Below, in pieces: positions 1,599 to 12,989 of a stretch of DNA of 27,465 bases. The stretch is taken from positions 1 to 27,465 of the IMG/VR virus record IMGVR_UViG_3300034375_002770, one strand, 5' to 3'. Position 1 is the first letter of the stretch. Every line of letters starts with the position of its first letter. Below the pieces are notes generated by a model. That model saw nothing but the letters and a program-made list of their open reading frames with translations. It had not been told where the DNA came from and did not search any database. The translations under genes were made by a program, and so were the position numbers. This stretch comes from a virus.

Positions 1599-2380
1599 TG
1601 AAGTTACTTATTGACGCAGACTACATTGTCTACAAAAGCTGCGCTGGAGCTGAAGAGGACTACGATTGGGGCGATGATGTCGTCATGGTCGTTAGTCGGT
1701 TCTCCGATGCGATGAAGAACGTACAGCGAGAGCTGACGAAGATTAAAAATGAGTTTATGTGGGACACACCTGAACTGGTGCTGTTCTTTTCCGACTCTAA
1801 AAATTTCCGCAAAAAAATTTACCCCGATTACAAGGGACATCGGAACAGAAAAAAGCCCTGCGCTTACAAACGTGTCATTGACGCACTACGAGATCAGTAC
1901 AAGGTCATCCGTATGGCCGAGCTGGAAGCAGATGACGCCATGGGAATTTATGCTACGGCTAATCCTGGTAACATTATTGTATCTCCTGATAAAGATATGC
2001 GTCAAATCCCTGGTAGACTATTCAACCTTGATGAAATGGTTGAAGTTACTGCAGAGGAAGGACGACGTTGGCACCTGATACAGACACTTGCCGGTGACCA
2101 GACTGATGGTTACAGTGGCGTGCCTGGTATTGGAGTCAAGCGTGCTGTGTCTTTGTTTGAAGAGCACGGTTACAACTGGGACACCGTAGTCACTGCCTTT
2201 GCTGACAAAGATCTAGATGAAGATGTTGCACTCACCAATGCAAGACTTGCTAAGATTCTCACTTGTGACGATTATGACACCACACGAAACAGGGTCATAC
2301 CCTGGACCCCCACCTCCGGTGATCGACCTGACGATGGAGCAGCAGTTCAAGCTACGGAGGATCAAAGACCTGCTGCCTGA
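1598..2380 (+). CDS. 5'-3' exonuclease (T7 gp6-like, flap-endonuclease family)
   Basis: A 260-residue PIN/FEN-like nuclease that in T7 removes RNA primers and degrades host DNA to nucleotides. Metal-binding acidic residues are visible: D6 and D8 in LLIDADYIVY, E110-D112-D113 in ELEADDAMG, D131 and D133 in SPDKDMRQIPG, and D167 and D170 in LAGDQTDGYSG. The following GVPGIGVKRAV is the helix-three-turn-helix DNA-binding element. The T7 protein is slightly longer. ATG 1598 is chosen because it forms an ATGA overlap with the polymerase stop. The TTG three bases upstream only adds one residue. Its 3' end overlaps the NblA-like gene in another frame. Confidence 0.9.
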   Translation: MKLLIDADYIVYKSCAGAEEDYDWGDDVVMVVSRFSDAMKNVQRELTKIKNEFMWDTPELVLFFSDSKNFRKKIYPDYKGHRNRKKPCAYKRVIDALRDQYKVIRMAELEADDAMGIYATANPGNIIVSPDKDMRQIPGRLFNLDEMVEVTAEEGRRWHLIQTLAGDQTDGYSGVPGIGVKRAVSLFEEHGYNWDTVVTAFADKDLDEDVALTNARLAKILTCDDYDTTRNRVIPWTPTSGDRPDDGAAVQATEDQRPAA

Positions 2381-2510
2381 AGCTGACAAAGAGGACATCA
2401 TCACCCTCTTTGAAGCATTGCAGCATCAGAACTTTGTTCTTTCCAACACTGTCTCTAACCTAGTCAAACAATGGCCGACTCACCCGCCCACTACACACGA
2501 GGATCCATAG
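2319..2510 (+). CDS. nblA: NblA-like phycobilisome degradation protein
   Basis: A 63-residue protein from GTG 2319. NblA is a small helical adaptor that directs the ClpCP protease to phycobiliproteins. Residues 4-10 (LTMEQQF) fit the family's L-S-x-E-Q-x-F signature. Against Anabaena NblA as I recall it, residues 4-50 align without a gap. Residues L48 and K50 then fall on L51 and K53, which are implicated in phycobiliprotein binding; R13, Q37 and V40 also coincide. Expected length is about 60 residues. The frame is open from ATG 2217 inside the exonuclease gene. GTG 2319 is the shortest start that keeps the signature; ATG 2334 would remove it. No good Shine-Dalgarno is visible, so coupling to the overlapping exonuclease is likely. 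NblA is known from some cyanophages and implies a phycobilisome-bearing host. The alignment is from memory. Confidence 0.72.
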   Translation: MIDLTMEQQFKLRRIKDLLPEADKEDIITLFEALQHQNFVLSNTVSNLVKQWPTHPPTTHEDP

Positions 2511-2758
2511 AAGTCTGGGACTTCATACGGGATCAAGAACTAAACTATCACCTCGGCAATGCTATTAAATATATTTGCAGAGCCGGTTACAAAGGTGATA
2601 ACACAAAGGCTCAAGACCTTAAAAAAGCTATCCACTATCTTGAAAATGAACTCCTACATACACACGAGCCTCATGGACCAAGCGGAGCAGTTCCGATCCG
2701 CCTACTCACTGACGACTGGGAAGGACCGTCGGACTGGTCAGAAAGCTTTGATCGATGA
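2471..2758 (+). CDS. DUF3310 protein (phage nucleotide-metabolism-associated)
   Basis: A 95-residue protein with the DUF3310 pattern: HYTRGSIEVWDFI near residue 7, then LGNAIKYICRAGYKGD, then DLKKAIHYLENEL ending near residue 62. DUF3310 is widespread in phages, is sometimes annotated as nucleotide-kinase-like, and has no established activity. The domain occupies residues 1-62. The last ~33 residues are non-conserved-looking and overlap the MazG-like frame, so the functional protein is probably the N-terminal two thirds. The ATG at 2471 lies inside the NblA-like 3' end (40-base overlap). The position between the exonuclease and the MazG and nrd genes suggests a nucleotide-pool role, which is inference. 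Confidence 0.82.
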   Translation: MADSPAHYTRGSIEVWDFIRDQELNYHLGNAIKYICRAGYKGDNTKAQDLKKAIHYLENELLHTHEPHGPSGAVPIRLLTDDWEGPSDWSESFDR

Positions 2759-3020
2759 AGAGTGGTCAGAGTTCCATGAAGCCTTCCACATGAAGGATGA
2801 GTGTGAACAACTGAAGGAGCTGGCTGACTTGGTGTACGTGTGCTTCCAGTTTGCTGCTTCTCAAGAGTGGGATCTGGATGAAGCTATGCACCGCATCCAC
2901 GAATCTAATATGTCTAAGCTCGGTGAAGATGGTAAGCCCATCTACCGAGTTGATGGCAAGGTCCTCAAAGGACCAAACTATAAACCACCTGTATTGAACG
3001 ACCTTATCATCGAAGAATGA
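2673..3020 (+). CDS. MazG-like nucleotide pyrophosphohydrolase
   Basis: A 115-residue protein of the all-alpha NTP pyrophosphohydrolase type. These enzymes hydrolyse NTPs or dNTPs to NMP and pyrophosphate using Mg2+ held by ExxE and ExxD motifs. Both are present: E30-W-S-E33 in LIDEEWSEFHEA and E49-L-A-D52 in LKELADLVYV. The tail has a Gly/Lys-rich segment, GKVLKGPNYKPP, common in phage members. The frame opens far upstream. ATG 2673 (MDQAEQF) is preferred because it starts just before the first helix and limits overlap with DUF3310; ATG 2646 would add nine residues. The stop overlaps the nrdA start as ATGA. Substrate is unknown; dNTP-pool or alarmone control are possibilities, not shown here. 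Confidence 0.8.
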   Translation: MDQAEQFRSAYSLTTGKDRRTGQKALIDEEWSEFHEAFHMKDECEQLKELADLVYVCFQFAASQEWDLDEAMHRIHESNMSKLGEDGKPIYRVDGKVLKGPNYKPPVLNDLIIEE

Positions 3021-4390
3021 CCACCTCTTATATTTCTCGAACCGGACGTGTCCAGTCTTGGCTGGATGATCCCACCTCACGCCTGCCTGTTAGCTGTACC
3101 GTCTTTGTAGTTGAAGACTCAATCACTGGAGACAATGGCATTGAAGCATCCTGGAAATTTGTATCACACGCTCTACGATATGGAGCAGGCTGCGCGGTTC
3201 ACCTGTCGAAGCTGCGACCCCGTGGAACAGAAAACGATAAGGGATTGGTCGCAAGCGGTCCAGTCTCGTTTGCAAAAATCTATTCGACACTAAATGAAAT
3301 CCTCCGTCGTGGGGGTGTCTACAAGAACGGAGCTGTGGTTTGTCATATCGATCTCAGCCATCCTGACGCTTTGGAGTTTATCGAAACTCCCCGTCACGAA
3401 CTCCCTTGGGTTAAGCGATGCATCAACATCACTCCCGAATGGTGGGAGAAGTGCACGTTTAAGGAGGCACTACTACAGGGTATCCGGTCTGGTGACATCT
3501 GGCTTAACAAAGTAAAGTATGACAATGAAGGAAAACGAATCCGAGGAAATGTATGCCTGGAAGTATACCTGCCCTCACGCGGAACTTGCCTGTTGCAACA
3601 TGTCAATCTCTCTGCCTGTGAGTTCGGAGACATCGAACAAGCTTTCGTTGAAGGTATGTCGCAACTGTGTAGCCTCCACGCTAAAACTGGCGTGGGTGAT
3701 TCAGGAGAATATCTTCCAGCAGAAACCGATCGACAAGTCGGTCTTGGAATGCTTGGACTCGCCAACCTCCTTCGGAGGTACGGAGTAACCTATGAGCAAT
3801 TCGGGGCTGCTTTGGACCAGTACAATGCAGGAGAAGTGGTACGCACACCAGCCTTTGAACTGGTGTCTGCCATTGGCTCTGGCGTTGATGCTGCCGCCCA
3901 GGTGGCTCGTGCTAATGATATGGTTCGAGCCTTTGCTATCGCACCCACTGCCTCCTGCAGTTATCGAAGCAAGGATCTGGATGGTTTTACTAGCACACCA
4001 GAAATCGCTCCGCCTATCAGCCGGACGGTAGACCGTGACAGCGGTACGTTCGGGGTACAAACATACAATTATGGCGACGTAGAGATCGCCTCAGAAGTTG
4101 GTTGGGACAACTACAAGCGTGTTGCTGATGGCATCATGACGTTGCTCAATCGCACGGGACTTCTTCATGGGTATAGCTTCAACAGTTGGAGTGATGTCGT
4201 CACATATGACGAAGCCTTTATCGAAGAGTGGTTGGATTCTCCGCAGACCTCCCTATATTATAGCCTGCAGGTCATGGGCGATGTCCAAGATAAGTCAAGT
4301 GCGTACGCTGCTATTGATGAAACGGAAGTCGATGACTATTTGGCAGGCATCTTAAATGAAGAAGAACTTACTTGCGACTGCCAAGAATGA
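3017..4390 (+). CDS. nrdA: Ribonucleotide reductase large (alpha) subunit, short class I-type
   Basis: A 457-residue catalytic subunit that reduces ribonucleotides to deoxyribonucleotides. The active-site triad N178-C180-E182 lies in GNVCLEVYLPS. C27 in PVSCTVFVVED fits the first redox cysteine. The tandem tyrosines Y414-Y415 in TSLYYSLQV match the radical-transfer pair of class I enzymes. The C-terminal TCDCQE (C453, C455) looks like the shuttle cysteine pair. It is much shorter than the roughly 750-residue E. coli protein and has no room for an N-terminal ATP cone. The usual second redox cysteine before NLSA appears to be V196, with C191 and C201 nearby. Cyanopodovirus RNRs were long annotated as class II and later reassigned to class I. 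The tyrosine pair and the adjacent beta gene support class I here. Confidence 0.87.
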   Translation: MTTSYISRTGRVQSWLDDPTSRLPVSCTVFVVEDSITGDNGIEASWKFVSHALRYGAGCAVHLSKLRPRGTENDKGLVASGPVSFAKIYSTLNEILRRGGVYKNGAVVCHIDLSHPDALEFIETPRHELPWVKRCINITPEWWEKCTFKEALLQGIRSGDIWLNKVKYDNEGKRIRGNVCLEVYLPSRGTCLLQHVNLSACEFGDIEQAFVEGMSQLCSLHAKTGVGDSGEYLPAETDRQVGLGMLGLANLLRRYGVTYEQFGAALDQYNAGEVVRTPAFELVSAIGSGVDAAAQVARANDMVRAFAIAPTASCSYRSKDLDGFTSTPEIAPPISRTVDRDSGTFGVQTYNYGDVEIASEVGWDNYKRVADGIMTLLNRTGLLHGYSFNSWSDVVTYDEAFIEEWLDSPQTSLYYSLQVMGDVQDKSSAYAAIDETEVDDYLAGILNEEELTCDCQE

Positions 4391-7586: not shown

Positions 7587-8336
7587 ATGGCAGAAGTAAT
7601 GTCTATGATCTCGGAGGATAACTCTCCGGGAGAACTTAATTCAGATGAACAAGAGTCTCTTCAAATTGGTGAAGAGATGGAGCAACAGCAAGAGAAGATG
7701 CTTGCTGGTAAATACAAAAGTGCAGAAGAACTTGAGTCTGCATATCTAGAACTGCAAAAGAAACTAGGTGAAGGCTCTGAAGAACAAGAAGAGCAATCAG
7801 AAGAGGTTGAGGAAGAGGCTGAAGGTTCTTTGTTTGACCGTCTTTGGGAAGAGTCAAAGAACGAAAAGCTTTCCGATGAGCTAGCTAAATCTATTGCAGA
7901 AGCAAACCAGGGTGACCTGGCAAAGATGTATCTAGATTATCGTACAGAAGTTGAGAGTCAACAACCTGCTCAGCTTACTGAGGAGGACGCTACCAACCTT
8001 AAAAATGCTGTTGGTGGTGACAAAGTATATACTGAGATGATGGGCTGGGCAAGTCAAAACCTGCCGGACCATGAGGTCGAAATGTATGATGCTATCATGG
8101 ACTCTGGTAACTCAGCCGCTGCGTACTTTGCAGTACAAGCTCTTGCCATGCGTTATCAAGATGCGAACGGTGTAGACGGTGAGTTGCTTCAAGGCAAAGC
8201 ACCTGTCAATACTAACGACACATTCAAAAGTCAAGCAGAACTTGTCGAAGCAATGGGTGACCCACGCTATTCACGTGACCCGGCGTACCGACAAGAGATC
8301 ATGCGTAAGCTTGAACGTTCTGACATTGACTTTTAA
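7587..8336 (+). CDS. Capsid assembly scaffold protein, T7 gp9-like
   Basis: A 249-residue, strongly acidic protein in the scaffold position directly after the portal. Residues 10-90 are very rich in Glu and Gln (EELESAYLELQKKLGEGSEE) and predicted helical or disordered. The C terminus ends with a basic helix, YRQEIMRKLERSDIDF. An acidic body with a basic C-terminal helix that binds coat protein is typical of scaffolds, which guide procapsid assembly and then leave. Sequence similarity to T7 gp9 is weak by eye, so position and composition carry much of the call. The stop shares bases with the hli start (TAATG). Confidence 0.88.
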   Translation: MAEVMSMISEDNSPGELNSDEQESLQIGEEMEQQQEKMLAGKYKSAEELESAYLELQKKLGEGSEEQEEQSEEVEEEAEGSLFDRLWEESKNEKLSDELAKSIAEANQGDLAKMYLDYRTEVESQQPAQLTEEDATNLKNAVGGDKVYTEMMGWASQNLPDHEVEMYDAIMDSGNSAAAYFAVQALAMRYQDANGVDGELLQGKAPVNTNDTFKSQAELVEAMGDPRYSRDPAYRQEIMRKLERSDIDF

Positions 8337-8527
8337 TGACTACTACTATTGAAGACCGAGGTCGTCTAAACCTCTACGCAAAAGAACCACCTATGACAAT
8401 CATGGACGTAACTGAAACCCACAACGAAAAGGCTGAAAAGCTTAACGGTCGCCTGGCTATGCTGGGCGTCATGGCTGCGCTCGGAGCGTATGCAATCACT
8501 GGTCAAATTATCCCTGGTATCTGGTAA
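8336..8527 (+). CDS. hli: High-light-inducible protein (chlorophyll-binding, one helix)
   Basis: A 63-residue Hli protein. Host relatives bind chlorophyll and carotenoid and protect photosystem II during stress. The diagnostic chlorophyll-binding segment EKLNGRLAMLGVMAALGAY (E34, N37, R39) starts a single transmembrane helix at about 36-55, and a short hydrophobic tail (GQIIPGIW) follows. Length is as expected for phage hli. ATG 8336 overlaps the scaffold stop by one base. An internal ATG at 8393 would still keep the helix. As an auxiliary metabolic gene it pairs with psbA about 1 kb downstream, with five small genes in between. Confidence 0.96.
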   Translation: MTTTIEDRGRLNLYAKEPPMTIMDVTETHNEKAEKLNGRLAMLGVMAALGAYAITGQIIPGIW

Positions 8528-9603: not shown

Positions 9604-10683
9604 ATGACCGCTATTCTTTCACAGAGGCAGTCTCGTTCTACTTGGGAAGAGTTCTGCCAGTGGGTGACGTCCACTAACAACCGTCTGTACGTTGGCTGGT
9701 TTGGTATCCTTATGATCCCAACCCTGCTGGCTGCTACTATTTGTTTTGTAACTGCCTTTGTGGCAGCACCACCTGTAGACATCGATGGAATTCGAGAACC
9801 AGTCGCAGGCTCCCTCCTCTACGGAAACAACATCATATCGGGAGCCGTCGTTCCGAGCAGCAATGCCATCGGACTACACTTCTACCCAATTTGGGAAGCT
9901 AGTACACTTGATGAATGGCTCTACAACGGGGGACCGTTCCAGCTCGTCGTGTTCCACTTCCTCATTGGTATCTATTCTTACATGGGACGAGAGTGGGAAC
10001 TTAGCTATCGACTAGGTATGCGCCCCTGGATCTTCGTCGCTTACTCTGCACCTGTTGCAGCAGCGAGTGCCGTCTTTCTGGTGTATCCCTTCGGACAAGG
10101 ATCCTTCTCTGATGCAATGCCACTCGGCATTTCAGGTACCTTTAATTATATGTTTGTCTTTCAGGCAGAGCATAATATCCTTATGCATCCATTCCATATG
10201 CTGGGAGTTGCTGGAGTCTTCGGTGGCTCTCTGTTCTCTGCTATGCATGGTAGCCTGGTTACCTCCTCACTTATCCGTGAGACAACTGAAGAAGTAAGTC
10301 AGAACTATGGTTACAAATTCGGACAAGAAGAAGAGACTTATAACATTGTTGCCGCTCATGGCTATTTTGGTCGTCTTATCTTCCAGTACGCCAGCTTCAA
10401 CAATAGTCGTAGTCTGCATTTCTTCCTGGCTGCTTGGCCTGTGGTTGGCATCTGGTTCACTGCGCTAGGTGTTAGCACCATGGCTTTCAACCTAAATGGA
10501 TTTAACTTCAACCAATCCATCCAAGACCGTGAAGGTCACGTTATCAATACGTGGGCAGACATCCTGAACCGAGCTGGTCTCGGCATGGAGGTCATGCACG
10601 AACGCAATGCCCACAACTTCCCGCTGGATTTGGCAGCTGCTGAGACAACTCCTGTTGCTCTGACTGCACCAGCAATCGGCTAA
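9604..10683 (+). CDS. psbA: Photosystem II D1 protein
   Basis: A 359-residue, full-length D1 reaction-centre protein. Phage-encoded D1 replaces the rapidly damaged host D1 in thylakoid photosystem II and keeps electron flow going during infection. Key sites are intact: Y161-region helix, H198 in HPFHMLG, the QB pocket [13 protein letters not shown] with S264, iron ligands H215 and H272, and the C-terminal processing site after DLA344. Position 130 is Glu (GREWELS), as in high-light D1 forms. ATG 9604 gives canonical numbering; upstream in-frame codons to 9535 cross a hairpin and are not part of D1. There is no intron. Hairpins flank the gene on both sides, so it may form its own expression unit. 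Confidence 0.99.
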
Positions 10684-11189: not shown

Positions 11190-12326
11190 ATGGCACATCA
11201 GTCTTCTACTTTGACCACTAGCCTTACACGGCCTGGTCAATCTAACGCTGCGGGTGACGCCCGCGCTCTTTACCTGAAGCTCTTCTCAGGTGAAATGTTC
11301 AAAGGGTTCCAATACAATGCAATCGCTCGTGACCTGGTCATGAAGCGTACCCTTACCAACGGTAAGTCCCTTCAATTCATTTATACCGGTCGGACCACGG
11401 CTGAGTTTCACACCCCCGGTAACGCCATTCTTGGCAACACCGATGGTGCACCGCCAGTGGCCGAGAAGACCATCACGGTTGATGACCTGCTGATCTCCAG
11501 CGCCTTCGTCTACGACCTTGATGAGACCCTTTCTCATTACGACCTGCGGAGCGAGATCTCCCGTAAGATCGGCTACGCTCTTGCTCAGAAGTATGACCGT
11601 CTGATCTTCCGTGCTGTCACTCGTGGCGCACGTGCTGCATCTCCGGTTACCAAGTCTAGCTTCGTTGAGCCCGGCGGCACCCAGATCCGTGTCGGTACTA
11701 CCGCCAACGCTTCTGACGCATATGACGCTCAGAAACTGACCACCGCCTTCTTCGACGCCGCTGCTGCGATGGACGAAAAGGGTGTGTCCTCTGAAGGACG
11801 TGTGGGCATCCTGAACCCCCGTCAGTACTACGCTCTGATCCAAGAGGTCGGCAACAATGGTCTGATCAACCGTGACGAGCAAGGCGCTGCCCTGCAGTCC
11901 GGTCAGGGCATCGTTGAGATCGCTGGTATCAAGATCTACAAGTCCATGAACATTCCGTTCTTCAGCCAGTATGGCACCAAGTACGGTACCGGTTCTGCGA
12001 CCAACCCTGGCACCACCTCTCCTGGTAACACCGGCTCCTTCGTTGGTGAAGCTCTGGAAGATGCTGCTAACGATGTCACTGGCATCAACAACGAGTACGG
12101 TGAAGAAACCGAATTCGCAAACTCCTGTGGTCTCATCTTCCAGCGCGAAGCTGCTGGTTGTGTTGAAGCCATCGGTCCCCAGGTGCAAGTCACCTCGGGT
12201 GACGTCTCCGTGGTTTACCAGGGTGACGTGATTTTGGGTCGTCTCGCCATGGGCGCAGACTACCTGAACCCTGCTTGTGCTGTTGAGCTGTACGCTGGTA
12301 CCGCTACTGCACCTGCTGCATTCTGA
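11190..12326 (+). CDS. Major capsid protein, T7 gp10-like (HK97 fold)
   Basis: A 378-residue coat protein that builds the icosahedral head. Family-like segments include ALYLKLFSGEMFKGFQYNAI, KSLQFIYTGRTTAEFHTPG, KTITVDDLLISSAFVYDLDE and GRVGILNPRQYYALIQEV near residue 206. The length is close to T7 gp10A. Codon use is strongly biased to C-ending and GGT/CGT codons, unlike the tail genes, as expected for the most expressed protein. A Gly/Thr/Asn-rich insertion (GTGSATNPGTTSPGNTGS) near residue 265 may be a surface loop. A strong terminator follows 14 bases after the stop, leaving no room for a gp10B-like frameshift extension. Confidence 0.97.
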   Translation: MAHQSSTLTTSLTRPGQSNAAGDARALYLKLFSGEMFKGFQYNAIARDLVMKRTLTNGKSLQFIYTGRTTAEFHTPGNAILGNTDGAPPVAEKTITVDDLLISSAFVYDLDETLSHYDLRSEISRKIGYALAQKYDRLIFRAVTRGARAASPVTKSSFVEPGGTQIRVGTTANASDAYDAQKLTTAFFDAAAAMDEKGVSSEGRVGILNPRQYYALIQEVGNNGLINRDEQGAALQSGQGIVEIAGIKIYKSMNIPFFSQYGTKYGTGSATNPGTTSPGNTGSFVGEALEDAANDVTGINNEYGEETEFANSCGLIFQREAAGCVEAIGPQVQVTSGDVSVVYQGDVILGRLAMGADYLNPACAVELYAGTATAPAAF

Positions 12327-12340
12327 TTTATTCAATTCTG

Positions 12341-12368
12341 GGGGATCCTTCGGGGTCCCCTTTTTTTT
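12341..12368 (+). terminator. Intrinsic terminator after the capsid gene
   Basis: GGGGATCC pairs with GGGTCCCC (8 bp including one G-U) around a TTCG tetraloop (12349-12352). A run of eight T follows at 12361-12368. It lies between the capsid and tail tube A genes, exactly where T7 has T-phi. There it lowers transcription into the tail genes relative to capsid. Confidence 0.95.
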
Positions 12369-12374
12369 ATCTAT

Positions 12375-12989
12375 ATGGCTTTTCCTACCACTAACTCGCA
12401 GCAAGAGCTGCCTGCTGTCAATCAAATCCTGCAGTCATGTGGTCAAGCGCCTGTGACTACCCTAGATCAAACCAACCCGGACGTTGCGATTGCCTATCAG
12501 ACTTTGCTCGAAGTCTCTCGGGAAGTACAGGCGGAAGGATGGACGTTTAACAAAGAGTCACATTACACGATGACTCCTGACATTAACAATGAAATCTTGA
12601 TTCCTAACAACGTTCTTCAGATCGATTTGACTGATAACGCTGCTAATGTTGAGAAAGATGTTATTCGTCGAAGCGGTAAGCTGTACGACAAAGTCGAGCA
12701 TACTTATACCTTTACTCAAGCTGTAGAATGTGACATTGTCTGGCTGTTTGACTGGGTTGACTTGCCTAAACCTGTCGCTGATTTCATCACTGCTAGAGCG
12801 GCTTCTATTACCTCCAGCCGCATCGTTGGTGACAACAGTCAATATCAAATCCTACAACAGAAAGAAGCATTCACCAGGGCTATGGCTATGGAGTATGAAT
12901 GCAATCAAGGTGACTATACTTTCTTTGGTCACTCTAACGAAACTAATCACTATCAAAGCTACAAACCTTATCACGCACTTTATCGGTAA
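12375..12989 (+). CDS. Tail tubular protein A, T7 gp11-like
   Basis: A 204-residue protein, close to T7 gp11 (196 residues), that forms the gatekeeper ring between portal and nozzle. Typical segments are ELPAVNQILQSCGQAPV, the EVQAEGWTFNKE turn, IIPNN-like ILIPNNVLQID, and PVADFITARAA near residue 135. The ATG follows the capsid terminator by only six bases and lacks a Shine-Dalgarno. Its stop shares bases with the tail tube B start (TAATG), so the two tail-tube proteins are likely translated together. Confidence 0.95.
   Translation: MAFPTTNSQQELPAVNQILQSCGQAPVTTLDQTNPDVAIAYQTLLEVSREVQAEGWTFNKESHYTMTPDINNEILIPNNVLQIDLTDNAANVEKDVIRRSGKLYDKVEHTYTFTQAVECDIVWLFDWVDLPKPVADFITARAASITSSRIVGDNSQYQILQQKEAFTRAMAMEYECNQGDYTFFGHSNETNHYQSYKPYHALYR

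Follow-up and report, generated by a model that had tools for sequence, protein, structure and literature searches.

Does a short open reading frame wedged between an exonuclease gene and a DUF3310 gene in an uncultured T7-like virus encode a genuine NblA, the adaptor that bridges phycobilisome proteins and ClpC (PMC7966870)? The window, meaning the whole stretch of DNA analysed here, comprises 27,465 nucleotides (IMG/VR record IMGVR_UViG_3300034375_002770, positions 1 to 27,465). The frame at 2319-2510 (+) encodes VIDLTMEQQFKLRRIKDLLPEADKEDIITLFEALQHQNFVLSNTVSNLVKQWPTHPPTTHEDP, the 63 residues originally predicted, and the same frame is open from position 2217.

The frame is preceded by a T7-like 5'-3' exonuclease gene (gp6-like; 1598-2380, +; PF02739, 3.3e-12; PHROG 107, 2.4e-62), which shares its last 107 bases with nblA, counted from an ATG at 2274, and followed by a DUF3310 gene (2471-2758, +; ATG at 2471; PF11753, 8.3e-16), whose 5' end overlaps it by 40 bases; the overlaps anticipated at both ends are therefore present, with the exonuclease ending at 2380 and DUF3310 starting at 2471. 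A MazG/PRA-PH-type nucleotide pyrophosphohydrolase (2559-3020, +; PF01503, 8.2e-9; PHROG 671, 2.8e-35) and a ribonucleotide reductase large subunit (3017-4390, +; PF02867, 2.4e-19; PHROG 367, 2e-54), class II according to the S-TIP37 annotation (L082), come next. Both photosynthesis genes that had been reported alongside were recovered further downstream, namely a high-light-inducible protein gene (hli; 8336-8527, +; 92% identical to the annotated stretch of S-SBP1; PF00504 at 19.8 bits, under the cut-off of 22.3) and psbA, encoding the photosystem II D1 protein (9604-10683, +; PF00124, 7.1e-88; start taken at MTAILSQ). A promoter and terminator scan around the cluster returned promoters at no more than chance level. 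Two further observations concern gene calling in the window. The DNA polymerase lies in two overlapping frames, 1-372 and 276-1598 (exonuclease and polymerase parts), and the S-TIP37 and P-SSP7 records mark the split polymerase as a split gene or frameshift. A 379-codon open frame (11286-12425, -) is antisense to a 378-codon open reading frame (11190-12326, +) that is a probable capsid gene, and the antisense frame is probably a compositional artefact.

The exonuclease and DUF3310 genes share one reading frame and nblA occupies another. The coding status of the frame was examined over codons 2381-2470, a stretch free of any other called gene. Relatives were encoded on 382 viral contigs, 80 of which were kept for analysis and combined with fifteen annotated-phage records (95 homologs in total). 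Pooled pN/pS was 0.21 in the nblA frame, against 1.6 and 3.3 in the two alternative frames, which carry stops in 95 of 95 and 92 of 95 sequences; selecting homologs on protein similarity does tilt the sample towards conservation, yet it cannot yield a contrast between frames, and the contrast stands. That the frame is a chance opening between two real genes might be suggested by its missing annotation in S-TIP37, S-SBP1, S-CBP3 (NC_025461) and S-RIP2 (NC_020838). The pN/pS values speak against this, as does synonymous codon choice in the overlapping exonuclease gene, which protects the nblA start codon, and a chance frame was rejected on both grounds as vanishingly improbable.

The same codon choice bears on the limits of the gene. 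The original prediction began translation at GTG 2319; this was not borne out, as an ATG about 14 residues ahead of it is kept in most homologs. In the window this ATG, at 2274, is made by a tyrosine-aspartate pair of the exonuclease (TAT GA), and the tyrosine codon is TAT rather than TAC in 86 sequences to 6 (n = 92), compared with 307 to 565 (35% TAT) for tyrosine elsewhere in the exonuclease gene. All six TAC exceptions have an in-frame ATG one codon downstream. From the TAT bias, the rescue by an in-frame ATG in every TAC case and the conservation among homologs, ATG 2274 emerges as the most probable start; the gene then spans 2274-2510 (+) and encodes 78 amino acids. GTG 2319 and ATG 2334 were considered and are less likely starts, several homologs having none there or anywhere else ahead of the conserved core except near residue -14. 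S-SBP1 has TTG in place of the conserved ATG, and no clear ribosome-binding site was found ahead of any candidate start. In KBS-P-1A, S-CBP1, S-CBP4, S-B28, S-SRP01 and P-SSP2, the gene calls begin downstream (3') of the conserved ATG; the equivalent of ATG 2274 offers a simple rule for re-annotation.

Family membership was assessed with the Pfam NblA profile (PF04485; curated gathering cut-off, 25 bits). The 63-residue protein scored 30.1 bits, bearing out the NblA signature first proposed from the letters, the 78-residue protein 29.2 bits and the whole-record search 29.4 bits, with Pfam positions 1-49 of 50 matched at 2325-2471 (+). One reversed and nine shuffled copies gave no NblA match, and 43 of 48 diverse homologs matched PF04485 at E <= 0.01. 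A phage-family profile built from these 48 homologs and searched against 177,635 PDB sequences recovered all four solved NblA structures: 3cs5 ranked first (3.8e-4) and 1ojh, Anabaena NblA, second (0.025), the only two of the four with E < 0.1, and 2q8v (0.27) and 2qdo (0.44) were also found. A profile trimmed to the core was weaker (3cs5 at 0.14). Matches to SpoVIF, Cnl2_NKP2 and uteroglobin were discarded, as they fell below cut-offs and covered only part of a helix.

The phage-family core aligns without gaps to both 3cs5 and 1ojh. The gap-free alignment to Anabaena NblA that had been put forward holds over 49 residues (1ojh residues 5-53) and places L51 and K53, the residues that reportedly contact phycobiliproteins (Bienert 2006), on L63 and K65 of the 78-residue protein. 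The claim that this L-x-K pair is kept is right for the window copy and, for its leucine, in all 95 homologs; the lysine is present in 86 of 95, and the S-TIP37 protein has threonine at its place. Besides these positions, the phage protein shares with cyanobacterial NblA (PF04485; 1ojh, 3cs5, 2q8v, 2qdo) an N-terminal L-[ST]-x-E-Q motif and a helix-loop-helix; it differs in a longer, proline-rich N-terminal part (residues 1-17), a P-H-P-x-T-T-type tail and a distant sequence, which scores 21.4 bits (E = 2.1e-4) against the cut-off of 100 for the cellular NblA equivalog NF045916 (NCBIfam).

AlphaFold2 modelled the 53-residue core as helices of 16 and 27 residues (core residues 6-21 and 24-50; mean pLDDT, 92), and the full-length model has the same helix pattern; the prediction agrees with the helix-loop-helix of about 60 residues expected of NblA. 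Foldseek searches of the PDB with the full-length or core model returned no NblA match, the query being a 53-residue helix pair run without a positive control. This result, and the assignment of the window protein (1.1e-20) and all 48 homologs to PHROG 27006, which is filed as of unknown function, would suit a short helical protein of the phage that shares no ancestry with NblA and is like it only by coincidence; judging from its placement between exonuclease and DUF3310, it would serve replication or dNTP supply. Such an origin is very improbable given the curated Pfam match (6.8e-7), its loss on reversal and shuffling, and the retrieval of all four NblA structures by the family profile; descent from NblA is preferred.

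The same locus was then compared across related cyanophages. The order exonuclease, nblA, DUF3310, MazG, ribonucleotide reductase and R2-like protein is conserved with few changes in S-TIP37, S-SBP1, KBS-P-1A, S-CBP1, S-CBP3, S-CBP4, S-B28, S-SRP01, DSL-LC07 and NATL1A-7, with DUF3310 annotated in some but not all; the order recurs in P-SSP2 and P-SSP7, where no MazG gene is annotated, and S-RIP2 also has nblA between exonuclease and DUF3310/MazG. The S-TIP37 homolog, which occupies the same locus as the window copy, is from the phage said to have been used in the 2025 work of Nadel. No family-profile match was found at the locus in the more distant T7-like phages 9515-10a, Syn5, P60, S-CBP42, S-TIP28 and SS120-1, which indicates that nblA belongs to one clade. 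The viral nblA frame is coding, under purifying selection, a member of the Pfam NblA family and fixed in position in one T7-like cyanophage clade. Across the cluster, the window is 82.7% identical in DNA to S-SBP1 and 81.3% to S-TIP37; both infect Synechococcus, and this kinship supports marine Synechococcus as the putative host, in line with the phycobilisome-bearing host first proposed. KBS-P-1A and S-B28, which have the gene at this locus too, are likewise Synechococcus phages.

Annotation of the gene in these relatives is poor, as the original prediction had expected. It is unannotated in S-TIP37, S-SBP1, DSL-LC07, S-CBP3, NATL1A-7 (NC_016658) and S-RIP2 and labelled "hypothetical" in others. 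Because overlap with two genes leads annotation to miss or trim nblA in most relatives, its abundance is probably undercounted. In S-RIP1 (L093, about 2430-2919), the nblA homolog is split over two reading frames, either through decay of the gene or through a sequencing error, and an open reading frame for an HNH endonuclease lies between it and DUF3310.

Viral nblA itself is not new. As summarized in PMC9602691, Nadel in 2019 predicted nblA in 15 isolates, of which 14 were cyanopodoviruses, and the window copy resembles these genes of marine and estuarine phages, as far as that summary describes them, in family, phage group and size. The same source outlines a reduction in phycobilin when a marine viral nblA is placed in S. 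elongatus PCC 7942, and PMC12892361 refers to a 2025 Nature paper by Nadel in which an oceanic cyanophage NblA degrades host antennae. The proteins of S-TIP37, S-SBP1, S-RIP2, KBS-P-1A and S-CBP1/3/4 sit at the same position and are 61-77% identical to that of the window, which represents a separate, uncultured member; among named phages the highest identity is 77%. In the freshwater cyanophages Ma-LMM01, MaMV-DC and PaV-LD, NblA is likewise phage-borne, and heterologous expression of freshwater cyanophage NblA makes phycobilins drop (PMC9602691), but their NblA forms a separate branch of the published tree and they belong to other phage families (PMC9602691). Embedding in the replication cluster had been offered as the novelty; since nblA was listed in 14 cyanopodoviruses in 2019 and the survey of the locus shows this to be its standard position in the T7-like clade, the window nblA is a further member of a known viral gene in an already known location.

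Taken together with family knowledge, this is very probably a true nblA, carried by a T7-like phage that infects marine Synechococcus, and the gene product would deliver antenna proteins to a host protease. A small helix-loop-helix NblA would be made while the phage infects a marine Synechococcus that has phycobilisomes and, by analogy with its family, would dimerize into a four-helix bundle, bind antenna proteins and hand them to the host ClpC-ClpP/R protease. Stripping of the antenna would release amino acids, presumably to the benefit of the phage, and phage D1 (psbA) and Hli would keep photosystem II working meanwhile.

Homologs from Prochlorococcus phages complicate the choice of target. 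A diverged nblA is present at the same locus in these phages and in related metagenomic contigs (L092 and L091, both 2456-2764; L090, 2456-2728; and L118-L197), with a pN/pS of 0.26 in the unique stretch across 69 distinct sequences that are mostly metagenomic, their hosts being assigned from kinship to P-SSP7. The tested examples score under the PF04485 cut-off, and at the position equivalent to K53 E or D predominates. Prochlorococcus has neither phycobilisomes nor nblA (PMC7439483). As these copies are selected despite falling below the Pfam cut-off, the phycobilisome may not be the target in every phage; they might act on remnant phycoerythrin or on another protein. Carried over to the window, this would mean a protein of NblA fold and ancestry that brings ClpC different substrates, from host or phage, with the phycobilisome not its main target. 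We consider this unlikely, since the window copy retains both L and K and scores above the Pfam threshold, and since the phages closest to it have Synechococcus, a genus with phycobilisomes, as their host. A broader proposal, in which the NblA-like protein encoded here serves one clade of T7-like cyanophages as a general adaptor for ClpC and is not dedicated to phycobilisomes, is doubtful but somewhat less so; if true, further host proteins would be channelled to the protease. For the window, antenna delivery remains the preferred reading.

Host genomes were also searched for NblA and a possible donor. A scan with conserved peptides found only five stretches (L097-L100 and L101), and these match the phage-family profile at 113-135 bits and therefore have the appearance of phage sequence carried along in bins or single-cell assemblies. 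With PF04485 at E <= 0.001, matches were obtained in only 4 of the 201 genomes of the Prochlorococcus W8 assembly (G003) family, one of them in a T7-like phage stretch. The Pfam profile seems to miss most host copies (L114, L116 and L117; W8 family), while many phage copies pass. The T7-like phage stretch in a genome of the W8 family (L115; 1420-1707, -) carries a distant NblA-like open reading frame (23.1 bits) between exonuclease and MazG.
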